This document shows, piece after piece, positions 9,989 to 31,749 of a stretch of DNA of 43,006 nucleotides; position 1 is the first letter of the stretch; every line of letters begins with the position of its first letter. A program made the translations under genes and the position numbers. A model generated the notes under the pieces. It made no database searches and was not told the origin of the DNA. It worked only from the letters and a program-made list of their open reading frames with translations. The stretch lies in IMG/VR virus record IMGVR_UViG_3300046463_000423, positions 1 through 43,006 of that record; one strand, given 5' to 3'. The stretch comes from a virus.

Positions 9989-11041
9989 TTAGGCAAACTC
10001 GAAGCCGCGCTCGCGAATACGATCGCGCTGCAGGGCTTCGTACGCCTGGTTCAGTTCGCATCCAATGAATTTGCGGCCGAGGCGCGCAGCGACCTGTCCG
10101 GTGGTGCCGCTGCCGAAGAACGGATCGAACACGATGTCGCCGGCGCGCGAGCCAGCCATGACGCAAGGTTCGACGAGTTCCTGCGGAAAGGTGGCAAAGT
10201 GCGCGCCTTTGTACGGCGTCGTTGCGATCGTCCACACTGATCGCCGGTTTGCGCGGCCGCTGTCTCCGGTCCATTCGTTGCCGGATTTCGTTCGCGATTC
10301 TTCGCGTTCATCGTCGCCGTATTTGTTTCCGCCGAACCGCGGCCCGACAGCCTTCATTGATCCGTTAGTTTTTCCTGGGACGCGATCGCTTCCCGCCTGA
10401 CTCGGCAAGCCGGGTTGCGAGAGCCGCTCGACGCTTGTTTCTGCGAGTGGTTGCGCAATTGCTTCCGCGTCATAAAAATACCGCTCTGACTTTGCCAATA
10501 GGAACAGCGATTCGTGCGCCTTGGTGCAGCGGTCCCGAACGCTCTCTGGCATGGGATTCGGCTTGTGCCAGATGATTTCCTGCCGCAGATACCAGCCATC
10601 GGCACGCAGGGCGAACGCGAGCATCCACGGAATGCCGATCAGGTCTTTCGGTTTTAGCCCCGATCCTTCGGGAATAGCGCCTGTCCGAGACGCTTTCTGA
10701 GGATGCGCTTCGATCTGCCGTGCACTAATAACGGATCGTTCTGCCATTTGCCCGGTACGCCCCTGTGCGCCCCACGATCCGGCATAGCTGTCGCCGATGT
10801 TCAGCCACAGGGTTCCGTCGTCGGCCAGAAGGTCGCGTGCAGCACGGAAGACGTCGATCATTGCCGCGATGTACGCGTCAGGGGATTCCTCAAGGCCGAG
10901 TTGCCCCGGATGTCCGTAGTCGCGCAGACCGTAGTAGGGCGGCGACGTGACGATCGTCTGCACCTTCACGCCGTCGGCAATCATCGCGCGCATCGTGTCG
11001 CGGCAGTCGCCAAAGTGGCAGCGATCAATCCAGTTGCTCAT
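9989..11041 (-). CDS. DNA methyltransferase (beta class), copy 1
   Basis: A 350-residue SAM-dependent methyltransferase with the permuted beta-class order: catalytic TSPPYYGLRDYG (residues 32-43) first, SAM-binding DPFFGSGTT (about 306) last. TSPPY-type motifs are usual in N4-cytosine and some N6-adenine enzymes. No restriction gene is adjacent, so it is an orphan enzyme, likely for protection against host restriction. A close paralogue is at 13855-14886. A terminator lies just upstream, so expression needs read-through or an unseen promoter. Confidence 0.9.
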   Translation of the reverse strand: MSNWIDRCHFGDCRDTMRAMIADGVKVQTIVTSPPYYGLRDYGHPGQLGLEESPDAYIAAMIDVFRAARDLLADDGTLWLNIGDSYAGSWGAQGRTGQMAERSVISARQIEAHPQKASRTGAIPEGSGLKPKDLIGIPWMLAFALRADGWYLRQEIIWHKPNPMPESVRDRCTKAHESLFLLAKSERYFYDAEAIAQPLAETSVERLSQPGLPSQAGSDRVPGKTNGSMKAVGPRFGGNKYGDDEREESRTKSGNEWTGDSGRANRRSVWTIATTPYKGAHFATFPQELVEPCVMAGSRAGDIVFDPFFGSGTTGQVAARLGRKFIGCELNQAYEALQRDRIRERGFEFA

Positions 11042-13484: not shown

Positions 13485-13858
13485 CACGCCCCCATGACCA
13501 TGACGTGACACCGGCCGCCCTTGACGATCTCGCCGCGCGCGACGAATAGCTCGTCGATCTGGCTGTCGTCGTCGTAGACGCCAGCATGCGTCAGCGCATC
13601 GAGCGCGGCCTTGACACGGTTATCAATGTCGGCCACGCGCCGATCTCGCATGCTGACGTGCATCGCCACGCACAGGCGCGCATCGCCGAACTTGATGGCT
13701 TGGCGCTCGGCGACGATCTCGGCGACGCGCTGGCGGAAGTCTTTGCCTTCCTTCGTTATGTACATCCCCTTGGGGGACTTACGCCAATAGCTGTTAATCG
13801 ACGGCGGGAGGGGGAGGGTTAGAAATTGGGCAACGCCGGATAATGGATGGTCTGTCAT
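13484..13858 (-). CDS. rusA: RusA-family Holliday junction resolvase
   Basis: A 124-residue endonuclease. N-terminal TLPLPPSINSYWR and GKDFRQRV, then the acidic active-site block VADIDNRVKAALDALTHAGVYDDDSQIDEL with catalytic-type Asp77/Asp79 and Asp96-98 cluster plus Lys83. It resolves four-way junctions made during phage replication and recombination. ATGA overlap with methyltransferase copy 2 upstream. Confidence 0.9.
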   Translation of the reverse strand: MTDHPLSGVAQFLTLPLPPSINSYWRKSPKGMYITKEGKDFRQRVAEIVAERQAIKFGDARLCVAMHVSMRDRRVADIDNRVKAALDALTHAGVYDDDSQIDELFVARGEIVKGGRCHVMVMGA

Positions 13859-14886
13859 GCGATCTCCAGCATCAGGCCGGGCTGGCGCAGGCGTTCGCGC
13901 TGTAGGGGCTCGTAAGCCGGGTTCAGCTCACAACCGATGAATTCGCGCCCGAGAGCAGATGCAACTTGCCCCGTCGTGCCGGATCCGAAGAACGGGTCTA
14001 GCACGATGTCACCCGGCTTGCTGCCAGCAAGTACGCATGGCTCGACGAGCGCTGTCGGGAACGTCGCGAAATGCGCGCCTTTGTATGGTGTCGTCGCAAT
14101 GGTCCAGACCGATCGCTTATTAGCGCGACCACTTTCCCCGATCCACTCCTTGCCGCTCTTCGTGCGCGACTCTTGGCGATCGTCATCGCCGTACTTGTTG
14201 CCGCCGAAGCGCGGACCGGAGGCCTTCATCGCACCGTTGGTTTTTCCCGGCACGCGATCGCTTCCGGCTTGATTGGATAGATTCGGCTGGCTTAGGCGCT
14301 CAACACTTGTCTCGGCGAGCGGCTGCGCAATCGCTTCCGCGTCGTAGTAGTAACGGTCGCTCTTTGCTAATAGGAACAGTGATTCGTGCGACTTCGTGCA
14401 TCTGTCGCGGACGCTTTCCGGCATCGGGTTCGGTTTGTGCCAGATAATTTCCTGTCGCAGATACCATCCATCGGCGCGAAGAGCGAAGGCGAGCATCCAG
14501 GGAATTCCAATCAAGTCCTTCGCCTTGATGCCATCGCAAACGCCTTTGCTCGCAGCGACTTCGGCAGTGTGACGGCGGTCAGATCGCTGGCCGGTTGATC
14601 CCTGCTTCCCGTTGCCACCTGCCGTTGCGTAGCTATCCCCGATGTTAAGCCACAGGGTTCCATCGTCGGTCATCACATCGCGCACTGCGCGGAACACGTC
14701 GACCATCTCGGCGATATAGCGGTCTGGCGTTTCTTCGAGTCCGAGTTGCCCTTCGTGACCGTAGTCGCGCAGGCCGTAATAAGGCGGTGACGTTACGCAC
14801 GTTTGCACCTTCACGCCATCGGCGGCCATTGCTCGTAAGGTGTCGCGGCAATCGCCGAAGTGGCAGTTGTTCGTCCAGTTCGTCAT
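13855..14886 (-). CDS. DNA methyltransferase (beta class), copy 2
   Basis: A 343-residue close paralogue of the enzyme at 9989-11041: same TSPPYYGLRDYG (32-43) and DPFFGSGTT (about 297) motifs and almost the same target-recognition-like middle. The two differ mainly in a 30-40 residue loop between LNIGDSYA and KDLIGIPW, and at the termini. Start ATG 14886 has GAGAG upstream. It is the only methyltransferase embedded in the recombination block, ATGA-coupled to RusA. Confidence 0.9.
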   Translation of the reverse strand: MTNWTNNCHFGDCRDTLRAMAADGVKVQTCVTSPPYYGLRDYGHEGQLGLEETPDRYIAEMVDVFRAVRDVMTDDGTLWLNIGDSYATAGGNGKQGSTGQRSDRRHTAEVAASKGVCDGIKAKDLIGIPWMLAFALRADGWYLRQEIIWHKPNPMPESVRDRCTKSHESLFLLAKSDRYYYDAEAIAQPLAETSVERLSQPNLSNQAGSDRVPGKTNGAMKASGPRFGGNKYGDDDRQESRTKSGKEWIGESGRANKRSVWTIATTPYKGAHFATFPTALVEPCVLAGSKPGDIVLDPFFGSGTTGQVASALGREFIGCELNPAYEPLQRERLRQPGLMLEIA

Positions 14887-15059
14887 GCTCTCTTTTCGCT
14901 TTTTATATAGGCCCACAGTTCTTTCTTCGCCCGCTCTGCCGCTTCATCACCGGCCTTGCTGCGAACGCTCTCGACGATCTGCTTCGCGCGCTCGAACGAT
15001 CCGCTGCGACCGTCGCGCACCGCGGCCATAAAGCGGGCTAAGCATTCGGCTTGCGTCAT
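14883..15059 (-). CDS. Small helical protein (58 aa)
   Basis: ATG 15059 overlaps the lipoprotein stop (ATGA), which decides the start; ATG 15089 is in frame but overlaps more. The sequence MTQAECLARFMAAVRDGR..ERAKQIVESVRSKAGDEAAERAKKEL is highly charged and helical. Function unknown. Confidence 0.5.
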   Translation of the reverse strand: MTQAECLARFMAAVRDGRSGSFERAKQIVESVRSKAGDEAAERAKKELWAYIKSEKRA

Positions 15060-26266: not shown

Positions 26267-26473
26267 ATGACGAGTTTTGGCACTGCTGGCAGTACAGAAA
26301 AAAACAATACTGCCGCTGGTGTACTGGCGGAAGGCTTACGCAGCGAAGATGATGAGTACCGCATTGCCGCGGCTGCTGCCGCCATCCCCGCGCACATGCG
26401 CCGGGAGGTTCTGGCTCACTTGCGTGAGCTTATTTGCGCCGACGCAACGCACACCGTGACGGTATGCAAATAG
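26267..26473 (+). CDS. Hypothetical protein (68 aa)
   Basis: A 68-residue protein preceded by AGAGAGG at a good distance. N-terminus Gly/Ser/Thr-rich, then a helix (AAGVLAEGLRSEDDEYRIAAAAAAIPAHMRREVLAHLRELICA). It lies right after the CI-like gene behind its own promoter. Its last codons (HTVTVCK) are encoded by an operator-like sequence. Function unknown; an anti-repressor or immunity accessory is conceivable. Confidence 0.55.
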   Translation: MTSFGTAGSTEKNNTAAGVLAEGLRSEDDEYRIAAAAAAIPAHMRREVLAHLRELICADATHTVTVCK

Positions 26474-26505
26474 TGCTTGCGATACTGTGAAGGTTTTGAT
26501 ACGAT
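26450..26505 (+). promoter_or_regulatory. Double-operator promoter for candidate sRNA
   Basis: CACACCGTGACGGTATG (26450-26466) and GATACTGTGAAGGTTTT (26481-26497) are two operator-like sites. TTGCGA (26477-26482), 17-base spacer, TACGAT (26500-26505) form a good rightward sigma70 promoter overlapped by the second. Confidence 0.6.
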
Positions 26506-26511
26506 TTATCT

Positions 26512-26615
26512 AACGTGTCGTTTTTGCGTCTAGCGAGGCGATGTGTTCATGTTGGTTCCGTTCGTAGATCCCCAGATCTACTTTCCGCTCTCCTGATGGA
26601 TTGAGCGGCTTTTTA
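26512..26615 (+). ncRNA. Candidate ~104-nt small RNA
   Basis: Begins about 7 bases after a TTGCGA-17-TACGAT promoter and ends at a Rho-independent terminator. It contains a 7-bp hairpin GTAGATC/GATCTAC with a 4-base loop (26564-26581), then CCGCTC/GAGCGG (26585-26590 with 26603-26608) and CTTTTTATT. No convincing ORF beyond 8-15 codons. The form resembles Hfq-type sRNAs. Confidence 0.5.
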
Positions 26616-26623
26616 TTCGACAG

Positions 26624-26654
26624 GCCGTCGCAAGAGAGATCTGCGACGGCTTTT
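26624..26654 (+). terminator. Second tandem terminator
   Basis: Nine-base stem GCCGTCGCA/TGCGACGGC (26624-26632 with 26642-26650) followed by TTTT. Backs up the terminator of the candidate sRNA. Between here and 26790 no gene or further clear structure was seen. Confidence 0.75.
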
Positions 26655-26789
26655 GCGTTTCTAGGGGCGCGAAACCGGCTGCTTCAAGTGAGCGATAGCC
26701 GGCGTAGGAGCGCAGCAGATGACTTGACTCTGCTTCGCGCGAAACCTCCTGTTGAGTCTAGGTCCGCGCAAGCGTTGATCTAGCTGGCG

Positions 26790-26969
26790 GCGCCGGAAAG
26801 ACCGGCGCTTTCATTGCTGGCTCTTCGCCGCGCAACCGGTGAAAAGTCCCATCCCGTCCTTGCGCAAAGGGCAGCGAGGGGTCAGCCATGAGAGCGCAAA
26901 CCCGATACACCCTAGCCGCCGCTGGTTAGAGACTGGGATAGCCGAAAGGTGCAGAAAGCGGGCGCTCTC
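26790..26969 (-). ncRNA. Structured region, candidate C4-type regulatory RNA
   Basis: Perfect or near-perfect stems are packed together: GCGCCGG/CCGGCGC (26790-26796 with 26802-26808); GCGCAA/TTGCGC (26830-26835 with 26860-26865) inside flanking CTC/GAG and GCC/GGC pairs; GAGAGCGC/GCGCTCTC (26890-26897 with 26962-26969) enclosing CACC/GGTG and CTAGCC/GGTTAG. On the minus strand a 43-codon frame (26885-26754) reads MADPSLPFAQGRDGTFHRL, wording recalled from frames that cover P4-type C4/Icd leader RNAs. Strand and identity are inference. Confidence 0.4.
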
Positions 26970-26973
26970 AACC

Positions 26974-26997
26974 AAAAAAGCCAGCGCAAGGCTGGCT
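26974..26997 (-). terminator. Leftward Rho-independent terminator
   Basis: Minus strand AGCCAGC...GCTGGCT followed by T6 (stem 26997-26991 with 26985-26979). Ends the leftward transcript carrying the two tiny genes at 27058-27315. Confidence 0.8.
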
Positions 26998-27057
26998 CTC
27001 TGCGATCTATAACCGCAGCACAGGATTTCTCTGCAGGCGCGCCATCATGGCGACCGC

Positions 27058-27150
27058 CTACAAGCAGATGCGTTCTATTTCTCGCCGATCGGTTGGTGAT
27101 CTACTGACCGGCTGACGTAATAAGCGGCGATGCAAGTTAGTCGAGTTCAT
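27058..27150 (-). CDS. Possible 30-residue peptide
   Basis: ATG 27150 with AAGGA and GGAAG upstream; product MNSTNLHRRLLRQPVSRSPT.., very basic. It follows the acidic 42-residue gene by 36 bases and precedes a terminator, so a two-gene mini operon is plausible. Too short for family recognition. Confidence 0.35.
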   Translation of the reverse strand: MNSTNLHRRLLRQPVSRSPTDRREIERICL

Positions 27151-27186
27151 GGCTTCCGTTCCTTATGGTTGTGACTTCGTGGTGAT

Positions 27187-27315
27187 TCAGTCGCTGTCGG
27201 CGTCGCTATCGTCTGCGTCGTCGTCCAGTTCAGGCTCGCCATAGCTCTCGTCGCAATAGCGAGCGGCAACACGCGCAAGGTCGGATTCGACCGCGGTGTC
27301 GAAAGCTGTTTTCAT
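27187..27315 (-). CDS. Small acidic protein (42 aa)
   Basis: ATG 27315 with AGGAG seven bases upstream. Product MKTAFDTAVESDLARVAARYCDES.. ends in a run of Asp/Ser/Glu, a strongly acidic tail. Such DNA-mimic-like tails occur in anti-restriction and other inhibitor proteins, but the length is minimal and no family was recognised. It is behind the operator at 27450. Confidence 0.6.
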   Translation of the reverse strand: MKTAFDTAVESDLARVAARYCDESYGEPELDDDADDSDADSD

Positions 27316-27449
27316 GGCGCACTCCTAATGATCCTGAGATACGTTGAAGAAGGCCCCCGGTGCTTCTGGTGTGCGCGCCCGCTGAACGGACGTCGTTGCT
27401 GCGATCCTGACGACAAACTCGATTGACGTAGATCAGCACATGGCCGAAT

Positions 27450-27466
27450 GATGCCATAACGGTATC
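27450..27466 (-). promoter_or_regulatory. Operator for the tiny leftward genes
   Basis: GATGCCATAACGGTATC, one arm mismatch to consensus. A ~135-base leader separates it from the ATG at 27315. Confidence 0.6.
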
Positions 27467-27547
27467 TTTGAGTGCGAGAAGTTTTTGTTACAGGTTGTAT
27501 TCGTGGATACTGTTGCGCGTTTTGTGTTCGTTGGCGCACATTTCACG

Positions 27548-27564
27548 GATACCGTGAAGGCATC
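27548..27564 (+). promoter_or_regulatory. Operator for the small rightward genes
   Basis: GATACCGTGAAGGCATC, with a half-site GATACTGTTGC at 27507. Together with 27450 it makes a divergent operator pair about 100 bases apart. Confidence 0.55.
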
Positions 27565-27587
27565 TCGAATGGCTAGACGGAGGCCGC

Positions 27588-27731
27588 ATGAAGTTTGCCG
27601 CTTACATGGTTTGCTGGCCGCTGCTTGGCGTGTTCGCTGTGATGGCATTCGTCACGGACAGCATGATCGACGTGTGTGAAGGTCTGGATTGCTTGCTGTC
27701 GAAGCTTGAGGATTACGTGGAGGCGGAATGA
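27588..27731 (+). CDS. Small membrane protein (47 aa)
   Basis: ATG 27588 with GGAGG upstream. N-terminal membrane span (FAAYMVCWPLLGVFAVMAFV) and a Cys/acidic C-terminus (DVCEGLDCLLSKLEDYVEAE). Ends in an ATGA overlap with the next gene. No family recognised. Confidence 0.55.
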   Translation: MKFAAYMVCWPLLGVFAVMAFVTDSMIDVCEGLDCLLSKLEDYVEAE

Positions 27732-27928
27732 AGTTAGCTGAAGCTATCGCCATTGCTCGCCGCGTGATGATCGAGCACGGTGGCATCGAGTTATCGACCG
27801 TCGATATGCGCCCGCATGCGCAGCCAGTGAATCCCGACAATGCGCAGCAGGCGGAAACCGCAGCGGCATACAACGCAATGTATGCGTTCACGTCGATGCT
27901 GAACACGATTTCGCCGGAGTCGGCATGA
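27728..27928 (+). CDS. Hypothetical protein (66 aa)
   Basis: A 66-residue protein (MKLAEAIAIARRVMIEHGGIE..) coupled by ATGA overlaps on both sides. Helical, with a polar middle; no family recognised. Part of a three-gene unit 27588-28140 just before the non-coding region. Confidence 0.55.
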   Translation: MKLAEAIAIARRVMIEHGGIELSTVDMRPHAQPVNPDNAQQAETAAAYNAMYAFTSMLNTISPESA

Positions 27929-28140
27929 GTTCCGGCGCGCGCGATCCGCATGCCGATATTCAGGCGTTGTGCGATGCGCTGGCGTGCGCGCTCAGCGTGA
28001 TTGAGCGGCAAGGGCTTGAGAATCCGCCAGAGTGGCGCGAGACGATTGACGCTATCTCCGTACGGCTCGAAGGCCAGCACGAGCAGGAAGTGATCGCCGC
28101 GGCCGTCGCCATCATGGCGCGCAACCGCGTTATGCACTGA
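27925..28140 (+). CDS. Hypothetical protein (71 aa)
   Basis: A 71-residue helical protein (ADIQALCDALACALSVIERQGLENPPEWRETIDAISVRL...EVIAAAVAIMARNR). ATGA overlap with the previous gene. The motif of a short helix pair followed by EVIAAAVAIMARN recurs in early phage proteins. Function unknown. Confidence 0.55.
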   Translation: MSSGARDPHADIQALCDALACALSVIERQGLENPPEWRETIDAISVRLEGQHEQEVIAAAVAIMARNRVMH

Positions 28141-28560
28141 CAAACCGAATTCTCTGTGTGGGAATGGCGTCGCACGATGTTCCTCGCATCTGCGCGCAAC
28201 CAAGGGACCGCTCAAGGCAGCTAACCGGCCAACGCCGGCTCTGTGCCGCGAGCGGATCTCTACACACTCCATTTGCGCATGAGCGCTGCTCAGCAGTTGG
28301 CACTGCGGCCGAGTCCCGGCCTGTACGGGGCAGCGTTCAGCCGCAAATGATTCCCCGCGCTGCTCCCGGAGACATGCCCGCATTGCTGTAAGCGGTAGCC
28401 GGTGAGCGCGCACCTATAGCGAACATCGACCTTGCGGTCACGCGCCTGGCCGTGGAGTGGCGCGAAGCATCACGAGTAACCCCGGCAGGCCACGATAGGA
28501 CGTAAGCCCCACCTCCGCCTCATCTTCGGATGAGGTTTCAAGGCGCTAGGCGTGGTCAAC
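28141..28560 (+). ncRNA. Inverted-repeat-rich non-coding region, candidate structured RNA
   Basis: About 440 bases without a convincing gene. Helices seen: CCGCTC/GAGCGG (28208-28213 with 28250-28255) enclosing CCGGC/GCCGG; CATTTGCG/CGCAAATG (28270-28277 with 28342-28349) stacked, across a 3x3 internal loop, on GAGCGCTG/CAGCGTTC (28281-28288 with 28331-28338), which encloses two hairpins (28293-28306, 28307-28321); CGCGCC/GGCGCG (28441-28446 with 28459-28464); CCTCATC-TTCG-GATGAGG (28518-28535). A CGGGG/CCCCG pair (28326, 28353) could form a pseudoknot. Lies shortly before the terminase genes. Confidence 0.5.
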
Positions 28561-28580
28561 CCATACACACAGGAAGTGTA

Positions 28581-28853
28581 ATGAACAGTGTGCACGCATC
28601 CGGCGCCACCATCACGATCACGCCGCACGAGGGCGAGCCGATAACGCTAGAAGGCCGGCTCCACATACCGAACGAGCACATCAACCGCAACGATTGCGAA
28701 GCATGGCCGAATAGCCTGAGTGGAGCGATCACGGTTACGTTCGACGTGCGCTGCAACGGATGGCGCGTGTACGACACGCTGTCGAAGTTGCCACGTGCGC
28801 CGCGCAAGGTGGCGCAATGGAAGCGGGAGCAAACGCCACTGCGTTACCGATAG
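28581..28853 (+). CDS. Hypothetical protein (90 aa)
   Basis: ATG 28581 with AGGAAG upstream. Product begins MNSVHASGATITITPHEGEP and contains SGAITVTFDVRCNGWRVYDTL, a small beta-rich domain, then a basic tail. No family recognised. It lies between the structured region and the terminase small subunit. Confidence 0.55.
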   Translation: MNSVHASGATITITPHEGEPITLEGRLHIPNEHINRNDCEAWPNSLSGAITVTFDVRCNGWRVYDTLSKLPRAPRKVAQWKREQTPLRYR

Positions 28854-28919
28854 TAAGCTGAGCGGTTTCCGCTCGACGCTCGCGCATCTGAGCGCAAGAA
28901 TTCACTCAACAGGACCGAT

Positions 28920-29708
28920 ATGGCGCTGACAGACAAGCAGCGCCGCTTTGTGGACGAGTATCTGGTGGACTTGAACGCCACGCAAGCGGCGATTCGGGCG
29001 GGATACAAGCCCAAGTGGGCAGATTCGCAGGCATACCAGCTACTCCATAAAACTCCAGTCACGAAGTATTTGGAGCAGCGCCGCAAAGAGTTGGCCGAGG
29101 CAACCAAGATCACGCCAGAGGTGGTGCTCAAGCAATGGTGGGAACTCGCCAATGTCGATGTCAACGATCTCGTTGAGTATCGGCGTTCGAACTGCCGCCA
29201 TTGCTGGGGCAACGACCATGAATACCAGTGGACGCATGGCGAGTTCGAGAAGGCGCAGCGTGAAGCTGAGGACGAGGGCAAGCCTGAGCCGTCGATGAGT
29301 GGCGGATTCGGTTTCGACCACAACCGCGAGCCCAATCCTGAGTGCCCTGAGTGCGGCGGAGAAGGCAAGGGGAAAATCCATGTGCACGACACGCGCCGAC
29401 TGAAGGGCGCCGCCCGGCTGCTTTATGCCGGCGTGCACCAGGGTAAAGATGGCCTGAAGGTGCTGATCGACGACCGCATGAAGGCGCGTGAGCACGTAGG
29501 CCGCCACCTCGGCATGTTTAACGACAAGCGCGACGACGTGATCAAGGAGTTGGCCGCCGAGAAGATGCGGCTGGAAATTGAGCGGATGCGAATCGAGAAC
29601 GAGCGGCTCCGCAAGGAAGTCGAGGACGATGACGATGCGCCGCCCGAATCGCGCAAGTTCGTGATCGAGGTCAAGGACGCACGGAAGCGCAACGATGCCG
29701 AGTCTTAA
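28920..29708 (+). CDS. terS: Terminase small subunit with zinc-finger insert
   Basis: A 262-residue protein. N-terminal HTH (LTDKQRRFVDEYLVDLNATQAAIRAGYKPKWADSQAYQLLHKTPVTKYLEQRR) is the usual Terminase_2-type DNA-binding module. C92-x2-C95 and C142-x2-C145 bracket an acidic insert and form a DnaJ-like zinc finger (CPECGGEGKG). The C-terminus is a coiled coil (MRLEIERMRIENERLRKEV). It recognises the packaging site and recruits the large subunit. AGGACC precedes the ATG. Confidence 0.9.
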   Translation: MALTDKQRRFVDEYLVDLNATQAAIRAGYKPKWADSQAYQLLHKTPVTKYLEQRRKELAEATKITPEVVLKQWWELANVDVNDLVEYRRSNCRHCWGNDHEYQWTHGEFEKAQREAEDEGKPEPSMSGGFGFDHNREPNPECPECGGEGKGKIHVHDTRRLKGAARLLYAGVHQGKDGLKVLIDDRMKAREHVGRHLGMFNDKRDDVIKELAAEKMRLEIERMRIENERLRKEVEDDDDAPPESRKFVIEVKDARKRNDAES

Positions 29709-30969
29709 CGTACCGCAGGCTCAGTTCCTGTCGATGGAGCACAAGTTTCGCGCCTACGTTGCCGGTTTCGGATCGGGTAAGACGTGGGTTGGTTGTGGTG
29801 GCCTGATGCAGCACTTCTGGGAGTATCCGCGCATCAATGCGGGGTATTTCGCGCCGTCGTATCCGCAGATTCGTGACATTTTCTATCCGACCGTTGAAGA
29901 AGTGGCTGCCGATTGGGGGCTGAAGACTCGCATCAACGAGTCGAACAAGGAAGTGCACATCTTCGAGGGACGCAAGTCGCGCGGCACGATCATCTGCCGC
30001 TCGATGGAGCGTCCGGAGACGATCGTCGGCTTCAAGATCGGCAAGGCGCTGTGCGACGAGCTCGACGTGATGAAGTCCGACAAGGCCCGGCAGGCGTGGC
30101 GCAAGATCATCGCGCGGATGCGGTACAAGGTCGATAACCTGAAGAACGGTGTCGACGTCACGACCACGCCGGAAGGCTTCAAGTTCGTGCACGAGCAGTT
30201 CGTCAAGCAGCTCGGTTCCAAGCTGAATCTCGAACGGCTGTATGGGCTGATCCAGGCGAGCACGTATGACAACGAAGCGAACCTGCCTGACGATTACATC
30301 GACTCGCTGTTCCTGACGTATCCGCCGCAACTGATCGACGCATATCTGCGCGGCCAGTTCTGCAACCTGACGAGCGGCAGCGTCTATCCGAACTTCGACC
30401 GCAAGCTGAACCACACGAACGCCGAGATCGCCGCCGGCGAGCCGCTGCACATCGGCATGGACTTTAACGTTCTGCGCATGGCCGCGGTTGTCTACGTGAT
30501 CCGCGACGGTGCGCCGCACGCGGTGGATGAACTGGTCGACGTGCGCGACACGCCAGATATGGCGCGGCTGATCGGCGAGCGCTGGCGCGACAACGGCCAC
30601 GCGATCACGATCTATCCCGATGCGAGCGGCCAGAACACGAGCAGCAAGAAGGCGTCCGAGTCCGACATTTCGATTCTCAAGCAGGCGAAGTTCACGATCA
30701 ACGTTGGATCGACAAACCCGGCTGTCAAGGATCGCGTGCTGTCGACAAACGCCATGCTGCTGAACGGCCAGGGCGAACGCCGCATGAAGGTGAACACGCG
30801 GCGCTGCCCGAAGTTCACCGAAGGTCTCGAACAGCAGGCATACGACGAGCGCGGAGAACCGGACAAGTCGAGCGGCGTGGATCACGTCAACGACGCCGGC
30901 ACGTATCCGATCGTCCGCATGTATCCCATCGTGAAGCGCCAGACGACCGTCCGCCCGCTCCACATGTAA
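29695..30969 (+). CDS. terL: Terminase large subunit
   Basis: A 424-residue packaging motor/nuclease. Walker A GFGSGKT (24-30), Walker B-like ALCDELDVM (118-126) with catalytic-type Glu, and nuclease domain Asp in HIGMDFNV (about 256) and in IYPDASG (about 305). It pumps DNA into the prohead and makes the headful or end cut. The start overlaps the small subunit by 14 bases. The general form resembles Sf6/P22-related terminases, in line with the P22-type coat protein. Confidence 0.93.
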   Translation: MPSLNVPQAQFLSMEHKFRAYVAGFGSGKTWVGCGGLMQHFWEYPRINAGYFAPSYPQIRDIFYPTVEEVAADWGLKTRINESNKEVHIFEGRKSRGTIICRSMERPETIVGFKIGKALCDELDVMKSDKARQAWRKIIARMRYKVDNLKNGVDVTTTPEGFKFVHEQFVKQLGSKLNLERLYGLIQASTYDNEANLPDDYIDSLFLTYPPQLIDAYLRGQFCNLTSGSVYPNFDRKLNHTNAEIAAGEPLHIGMDFNVLRMAAVVYVIRDGAPHAVDELVDVRDTPDMARLIGERWRDNGHAITIYPDASGQNTSSKKASESDISILKQAKFTINVGSTNPAVKDRVLSTNAMLLNGQGERRMKVNTRRCPKFTEGLEQQAYDERGEPDKSSGVDHVNDAGTYPIVRMYPIVKRQTTVRPLHM

Positions 30970-31006: not shown

Positions 31007-31014
31007 ATTTGCAC

Positions 31015-31749
31015 ATGCGCGAACAGATCGACCTTCGACTCGGCGATTGCCTGGAGGTGATGAAGGCAATACCCGATGCGAGCGTTGATTTGATTCTGTG
31101 CGATTTGCCCTACGGAACGACGGCTTGCAAATGGGATTCGGTTATCCCCTTCGAACCGCTATGGGCGCAATACAGGCGCATTGCAAAGCCGAACGCGGCG
31201 ATTGTGCTGACGGCGAGCCAGCCGTTCACGACGGCGTTGATCGCGTCGAACCTGAAAGACTTCCGCTATTGCTGGGTGTGGGAGAAAGAGCAGGGCGTCA
31301 ATTTCCTGATGGCGAAGAAGCAGCCGATGAAGGTGCACGAGGACGTTTGCGTTTTCTCTGTCGGGCAGACGTTGTATGTCCCGCAGATGACCGTCGGAAA
31401 GCCGTACACGAGCGGTAAGGGCGACAGCGGCGATGTGAGCGGCAACGTCAAAAAGGTGCAGACGAAGAACTTCGGCGCTCGATACCCGCGCTCAGTCATT
31501 CGCATCAACCGAGAAACGGGCTTGCACCCCACACAAAAGCCCGTCGCGCTGATGGAGTACCTAATCCGCACGTACACGAACGAAGGCGACACGGTGCTCG
31601 ATAACTGCATGGGGTCGGGCACAACCGGCGTCGCATGCGCCAACACCGGCCGCAAGTTCATAGGCATTGAGCGCGATCCCGGCTACTTCGCCATCGCAAC
31701 GAACCGCATCGCAGAGGCGCAATCTCGCGACCTGCTGAGCGCAGCATAA
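31015..31749 (+). CDS. DNA N6-adenine methyltransferase (beta class)
   Basis: A 244-residue enzyme with catalytic DLPYGTTACKWD (30-41) first and SAM-binding LDNCMGSGTTG near residue 200. The DLPYG variant of DPPY is typical of phage adenine methyltransferases of this type. An orphan inside the late operon between TerL and portal genes, so it would be made late and could modify DNA before packaging. No ordinary ribosome site is adjacent to the ATG. Confidence 0.88.
   Translation: MREQIDLRLGDCLEVMKAIPDASVDLILCDLPYGTTACKWDSVIPFEPLWAQYRRIAKPNAAIVLTASQPFTTALIASNLKDFRYCWVWEKEQGVNFLMAKKQPMKVHEDVCVFSVGQTLYVPQMTVGKPYTSGKGDSGDVSGNVKKVQTKNFGARYPRSVIRINRETGLHPTQKPVALMEYLIRTYTNEGDTVLDNCMGSGTTGVACANTGRKFIGIERDPGYFAIATNRIAEAQSRDLLSAA

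Follow-up and report, generated by a model that had tools for sequence, protein, structure and literature searches.

A predicted row of separable structured RNA modules upstream of the terminase genes in a temperate-type phage

The region at 28141–28560 (+ strand) of the virus record IMGVR_UViG_3300046463_000423, whose full 43,006 nt constitute the window analyzed here, is shown by comparison with related phages to consist of at least four adjacent predicted RNA modules of the + strand (A, B, C, and D), which can be separated, and not of one RNA. The sequences show structure that is conserved and covaries in A, in D, and in the frame of a further, widespread element type (E), together with an absence of coding and + strand polarity; they likewise show modular gain, loss, and reordering in company with small ORFs and tRNAs, and a preferred seat upstream of the terminase genes. 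We favor, with a probability of roughly 0.55, an accessory RNA-gene island of small RNAs that would act in trans and be processed as tRNAs are. We infer that the phage is of a temperate type and related to Burkholderiales phages, the hosts being taken from loci L081 (Paraburkholderia) and L082 (Cupriavidus).

Folding, coding potential, and modular arrangement

The region is flanked by two small ORFs (27728–28140) and by a 90-aa ORF and the genes for the terminase small (TerS) and large (TerL) subunits. Its + strand folds to −187.6 kcal/mol (z = −2.91; 0/100 dinucleotide shuffles as low), with z = −2.36 for the minus strand by the same comparison of minimum free energy with shuffles. Among 1144 overlapping 150-nt scan windows over both strands, the one at 28201 (+) has the greatest excess folding of the record (z = −7.04), and that at 26776 (+) ranks fourth (z = −4.6). 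The structured region extends to ~28568, beyond 28560. No protein frame is conserved through it: the nominal 77-aa (+) and 253-aa (−) ORFs do not stay intact in relatives, where they are rearranged, interrupted by stops, or split into pieces that lie apart. These results bear out a preliminary description of the region as unusually structured, non-coding, and devoid of a credible gene. Counted on the + strand, every module has more G-U than A-C cells (21:9 in D, 16:5 in A, 15:0 in B, 34:0 in C, and 46:4 in E), which makes the terminase strand the functional one.

Relatives, numbered as loci (L), are for the most part metagenomic contigs. A TerL search gave 80 viral loci, and patterns from homologous pieces added more; this pattern-based collection biases conserved positions, and E-values from models built here are rough. 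By blastn, the homologous pieces are colinear yet interrupted in L001, L002, L004–L007, L010, and L011; in L001, L002, and L007, gaps of as much as several hundred nt part the pieces of the window's element. Insertions lie between C and D in L001 and L010, inserted ORFs keep B and C apart in L002 and L108, and the B position in L007 is occupied by a tRNA-Trp-like gene and an ORF. The order C-D of the window is replaced in L109, L126, and L140 by D (the tail of D) before C. In relatives generally, small ORFs or tRNAs come between modules, the order changes, or a module stands alone, so that the region is a row of separable modules as opposed to one RNA.

The helices had initially been fitted to one nested plan, that of a single large RNA, and this does not survive the comparison with relatives. 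Such an RNA, large and ornate in the manner of GOLLD or ROOL and looping out the inserted ORFs and tRNAs, would suit the good folding of the full 28141–28560 stretch and has a comparable setting, as phage GOLLD and ROOL occur near tRNA islands and tRNAs can sit in a GOLLD linker (PMC12286853); nevertheless, it is very improbable given the changes of order, the occurrence of D without A, B, or C in L004, L011, and L101, and the association of C with other partners. No conserved helix joining modules was found. The earlier impression of no evident GOLLD or ROOL match agrees with Rfam, which returned none at the gathering threshold for the record or at E ≤ 10 for 28000–28700. A proposed pseudoknot of 28326 with 28353 must likewise be abandoned, as its sides belong to B and C, respectively, which ORFs part in L002 and L108, and its GGGG reads GGAG in L001 and L002. 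A single closing helix (28153–28160 with 28560–28567) was ruled out, since the UGUGU it would use forms the loop of a hairpin and changes in its flanks are compensatory.

Structure and covariation of the modules

Module A (28146–28267, +) contains a hairpin at 28149–28165, a stem-loop at 28167–28197, and a long stem at 28203–28261. Across 13 distinct homologues (alignment A2), eight pairs carry two-sided changes, some of them around the loop of the first hairpin, whose UGUGU is invariant. In A, as in D, the helices have been kept through many two-sided changes.

Module B (28270–28349, +) has two stems across a 2×2 internal loop, with hairpins at 28293–28306 and 28307–28321 inside, in what is likely an E-type frame. 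The stems, symmetric loop, and two hairpins initially described here are thus present. As for the compensatory change proposed for these helices, alignment A3 has 23 pairs, no breaks, three G-U variants, and one two-sided change (U-A/G-C), but the change is confined to that pair; covariation support for B, drawn from near-identical sequences, is modest. Module C (28350–28414, +) is predicted as a hairpin whose closing strands are GCGC(U)GCUCCCGG/CCGGUGAGCGCGC and whose tip varies. Its 28 homologues, gathered by an exact 3′ motif, include some in phages with other terminases; alignment A4 contains no two-sided change, and nearly all stem variation consists of C-to-U changes facing a G (wobble).

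Module D (28427–28568, +) combines an H-type pseudoknot, a closing stem, and a UUCG hairpin. The loop of its 6-bp hairpin P1 (28441–28464) carries the 5′ side of the pseudoknot, GCCG (28449–28452), which pairs with CGGC at 28483–28486; this is where a pseudoknot is supported, as opposed to the site first proposed. The closing stem (28488–28494 with 28551–28557) encloses an inner stem (28506–28508 with 28542–28544), and exchanges in the two include CG/UA, AU/GC, CG/UG, and GU/GC/AU. Adjoining the tetraloop hairpin, an anti-Shine-Dalgarno-like CCUCC (28512–28516) is predicted to be single-stranded; CUCC is found in 19/20 and CCUCC in 14/20 of the D-type sequences examined. The UUCG-capped hairpin of the preliminary description is that at 28518–28535, and its whole stem is swapped in relatives with compensation (CUGAC-CUCG-GUCAG, CUUUCGG-UUCG-CCGGAAG, and CCGGCGC-UUCG-GUGCCGG among the replacements), while loop and flanks stay.

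In alignment A1 (17 sequences), 91% of D cells are paired, compared with 23–44% in slid controls, and nine pairs comprise 28 cells with two-sided change, a level that 0/500 shuffles reached. For the pseudoknot, 105/115 cells are paired over 14 D and 9 Rfam-model sequences (20–46/115 with the loop slid), and position 2 takes four pair types (CG, GU, UA, and AU) in D and Proteo-phage-1; these counts, with arms placed by hand, are supportive and not blind, and an automatic finder chose wrong arms in several sequences.

Compensatory changes, stem swaps, and G-U bias of this kind would not arise from homology alone. They stand against the view that the modules are recombination linkers, boundary sequences kept for their homology and enabling swaps of small-gene cassettes rather than functioning as RNA. 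That view draws on the match between module edges and cassette edges and on the unrelated ORFs that follow the same module; we consider it highly unlikely.

D also appears to be a divergent relative of Proteo-phage-1 (RF03044), and not a member of that family; the kinship (28427–28490) did not figure in the preliminary description. RF03044 scores 17.2 bits on D (E = 0.56 for 201 nt), below its gathering threshold of 42, and aligns over its full length (1–82) to 28429–28490, with the hairpin and then AAC.CCGGCAG present. The two have in common the D hairpin, the loop motif GCCG..AGUG, an A-rich stretch, CCGGCAG, and a covarying pseudoknot from loop to 3′ side; the core they share is a hairpin loop that pairs with a CCNNC-like arm before AG. 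D differs on its 3′ side, where it carries a closing stem, CCUCC, and a tetraloop hairpin, none of which is part of the 82-position Rfam model. In turn, the D model R1 gives weak matches (E = 4 and 6.8) that fall in register on the Proteo-phage-1 loci L175 and L181. Further R1 matches in L186, L188–L193, and L205 were not accepted as D, with E only 0.0002–0.01 per genome; those in L188 and L191 have strong terminator-like hairpins alongside, and that in L205 lies inside an apparent bacterial regulator gene. One genome (L177, L182) carries two tandem Proteo-phage-1 RNAs, which have a capsid-like gene on one side and on the other a gene resembling a P27-type small terminase. Among the papers covered by the literature search, none names Proteo-phage-1.

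At the gathering threshold of Rfam 15, none of the loci scanned gave a match to A, B, C, or E, except a tRNA in one E frame. Rfam matches to twister-sister, xrRNA, snoRNA, and miRNA families (E > 1) were taken as chance. A DNA similarity search of annotated phages with the region as query gave no match; with the longer relative L002 as query, it matched only a short piece that belongs to an inserted ORF.

E-type elements and their link with tRNA genes

Neither the second, E-type element of the window nor a link with tRNA genes was part of the preliminary description. The element lies at 26.8 kb (26808–26894, +), in the stretch covered by the fourth-ranking scan window (26776, +), and is a long helix, imperfectly paired and variable in its interior, in a B-like frame. 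It matches model R2 at 40.9 bits; both it and the B of the window are in the R2 seed, so that their R2 scores are not independent. B fits the same plan of two stems and a 2×2 loop, with B copies outside the seed scoring only ~14 bits (E 0.5–0.8). Given their place in the seed, kinship of both to E is likely and no more. A terminator-like hairpin follows the 26.8-kb element near 27000, and the element itself lies between repressor-like genes and the terminase side.

The frame of E, CYUUCACGCAUGGCGRYU...AGYCGCCANYCGUGAGRG, was recovered in 36 stretches with unrelated interiors, by a pattern from L002 and L082. It covaries, with eight pairs comprising 34 cells of two-sided change (0/500 shuffles as high); its core is fixed by the search pattern and its outer pairs are not. 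In L144 (2226–2317, −), the frame surrounds a complete tRNA-Gly (GCC), and this case suggests that the E frame is a scaffold resembling a tRNA precursor. E elements adjoin tRNA genes in L144, L158, L161, L166, L173, and L210; the order in L161 is E, tRNA-Met, D, and in L166 a full Proteo-phage-1 RNA (57.6 bits) shares the array with E. Between A and C, at the B position, there are tRNA-Trp-like genes in L007 (4417–4489) and L010 (4263–4334). These have a very short D loop; ARAGORN calls both, and neither reaches the Rfam threshold. The window's own record contains no tRNA by ARAGORN or Rfam cloverleaf search.

Behind the E arrays of L082 and L157 there are terminator-like hairpins, which would suit separate transcripts there. 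Separately, tails consisting of UGUCUCCUCC plus a terminator occur after E arrays in L082 and L144 and resemble L163 225–280.

Terminase neighborhood, proposed mode of action, and known systems

Directly 3′ of D is the 90-aa ORF (28581–28853, +; no PHROGs match), followed by TerS (28920–29708, +; phrog_51, E = 1.8e-45) and TerL (29695–30969, +; phrog_2, E = 1.2e-56). A DNA methyltransferase gene (phrog_67; 31009–31749) is inserted between TerL and portal, and two more methyltransferase-like ORFs, mutually similar and identified by eye, lie at 9989–11041 and 13855–14916 (−). In relatives, D-type matches mostly precede TerS and/or TerL from at least five unrelated lineages, with exceptions such as L204, where the match precedes a tail fiber gene; all D copies tied to terminase are oriented as the terminase is.

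Placement upstream of TerS in most D-type loci might indicate a packaging element, either a packaging RNA or a pac/cos DNA site read by the terminase, and a special tie to packaging had been entertained. Beyond position nothing supports it. D is 96.5% identical between the window and L083, where TerL is 50.8% identical; between L083 and L086 the values are 53.6% for D and 99.5% for TerL. Such uncoupling in both directions argues against a cognate packaging RNA or a pac/cos site. Moreover, the G-U polarity indicates RNA, and Proteo-phage-1 relatives occur beside capsid or other genes (named by eye), leaving this reading with only a slight probability. In the close relatives L083, L086, L092, L095, and L104, TerL has been cleanly swapped as a module for a 51–52% identical type while portal is still 86–96% identical.

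A more serious alternative, although one we consider rather unlikely, is that the modules are cis-acting leaders, each lying in untranslated RNA ahead of a small ORF or the terminase genes and controlling translation, mRNA processing, or late-operon read-through. A ribosome-binding site and start codon follow D by 18–28 nt in 12 to 13 of 17 copies and, in several copies, follow C by 14–22 nt and B by 21–28 nt; overall, D, B, and C often lie 14–28 nt before the start codon of non-homologous small ORFs, or abut another module. This constant nearness to start codons and terminase, the latter in one orientation across unrelated lineages, keeps a cis-leader role in contention. However, the downstream ORFs are non-homologous (other D copies have unrelated small ORFs at a distance similar to that of the 90-aa ORF), copies in L004, L086, and L088 have no ORF nearby, modules occur in tandem, terminators follow E arrays elsewhere, and short distances are expected anyway in compact phage genomes.

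Trans-acting RNAs are favored by the tandem array, the company of tRNAs, the terminator-like hairpins after E arrays, the copies lacking a nearby ORF, and a relative of sRNA type, Rfam classing Proteo-phage-1 as an sRNA gene. Weighing against the island reading, a promoter scan of 26300–29000 gave nothing above chance level, no good terminator was found 3′ of D, and a ribosome-binding site and start codon lie close 3′. Under the trans-acting interpretation, A–D would evolve independently and be read the same way as the terminase genes, presumably transcribed within an operon leading into these; processing of the kind that frees phage tRNAs might then release them as stable accessory RNAs that act in trans in infection or lysogeny. 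The likeliest working parts of D would be the pseudoknot, as a core for stability or binding, and the single-stranded CU-rich patch, which could, as a guess, pair with Shine-Dalgarno sequences; in B and E, it would be the tRNA-acceptor-like frame with its variable interior. More speculatively, and with rather low confidence, the locus may represent an undescribed, widespread kind of island made of shuffled cassettes, some of them pseudoknot RNAs and others tRNA-like frames whose interiors are hypervariable, maintained beside the terminase genes and acting against functions of the host or of rival phages, for example as ribosome-binding inhibitors or as decoys for tRNA-cutting defense enzymes.

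Phage islands that carry structured RNAs along with tRNAs are already known as a general kind. What appears new is that A, B, and C of the four modules match no described RNA family. The locus provides alignments and models that can be used for three or four undescribed families, adds a 3′ domain to the Proteo-phage-1 core, and offers modules whose shortness allows them to be expressed, probed, and deleted directly. The E frame, with a tRNA inside in one phage and other structures in relatives, joins tRNA islands and ncRNA islands.

Among known systems, the CU-rich toxic sRNAs of Burkholderia, of which the CUCC(UCC) of D is reminiscent, are reported to be toxic in Escherichia coli and to have no known function (PMC5688073, PMC4603805). 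The Betaproteobacteria toxic small RNA (RF02278) shares with D a CU-rich unpaired stretch; however, it is a short double hairpin with a terminator, whereas D is a pseudoknot RNA without one. A near-threshold RF02278 copy (41.6 bits versus a threshold of 50) lies between E and D in L163 (225–280). Phage tRNA gene clusters resemble the locus as a kind of island, in the intermixed tRNAs, and in the E frame around tRNA-Gly; they differ in that A, C, and D are not tRNA-like and most E interiors are not tRNAs. GOLLD and ROOL are phage and prophage ncRNAs found near tRNA islands, with function unknown (PMC12286853), from which the island modules differ in being much shorter, shuffled, separable, and without an Rfam match. 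GOLLD, ROOL, and Proteo-phage-1 are conserved yet unexplained, and the present locus presents several putative phage ncRNAs as exchangeable cassettes in one place.
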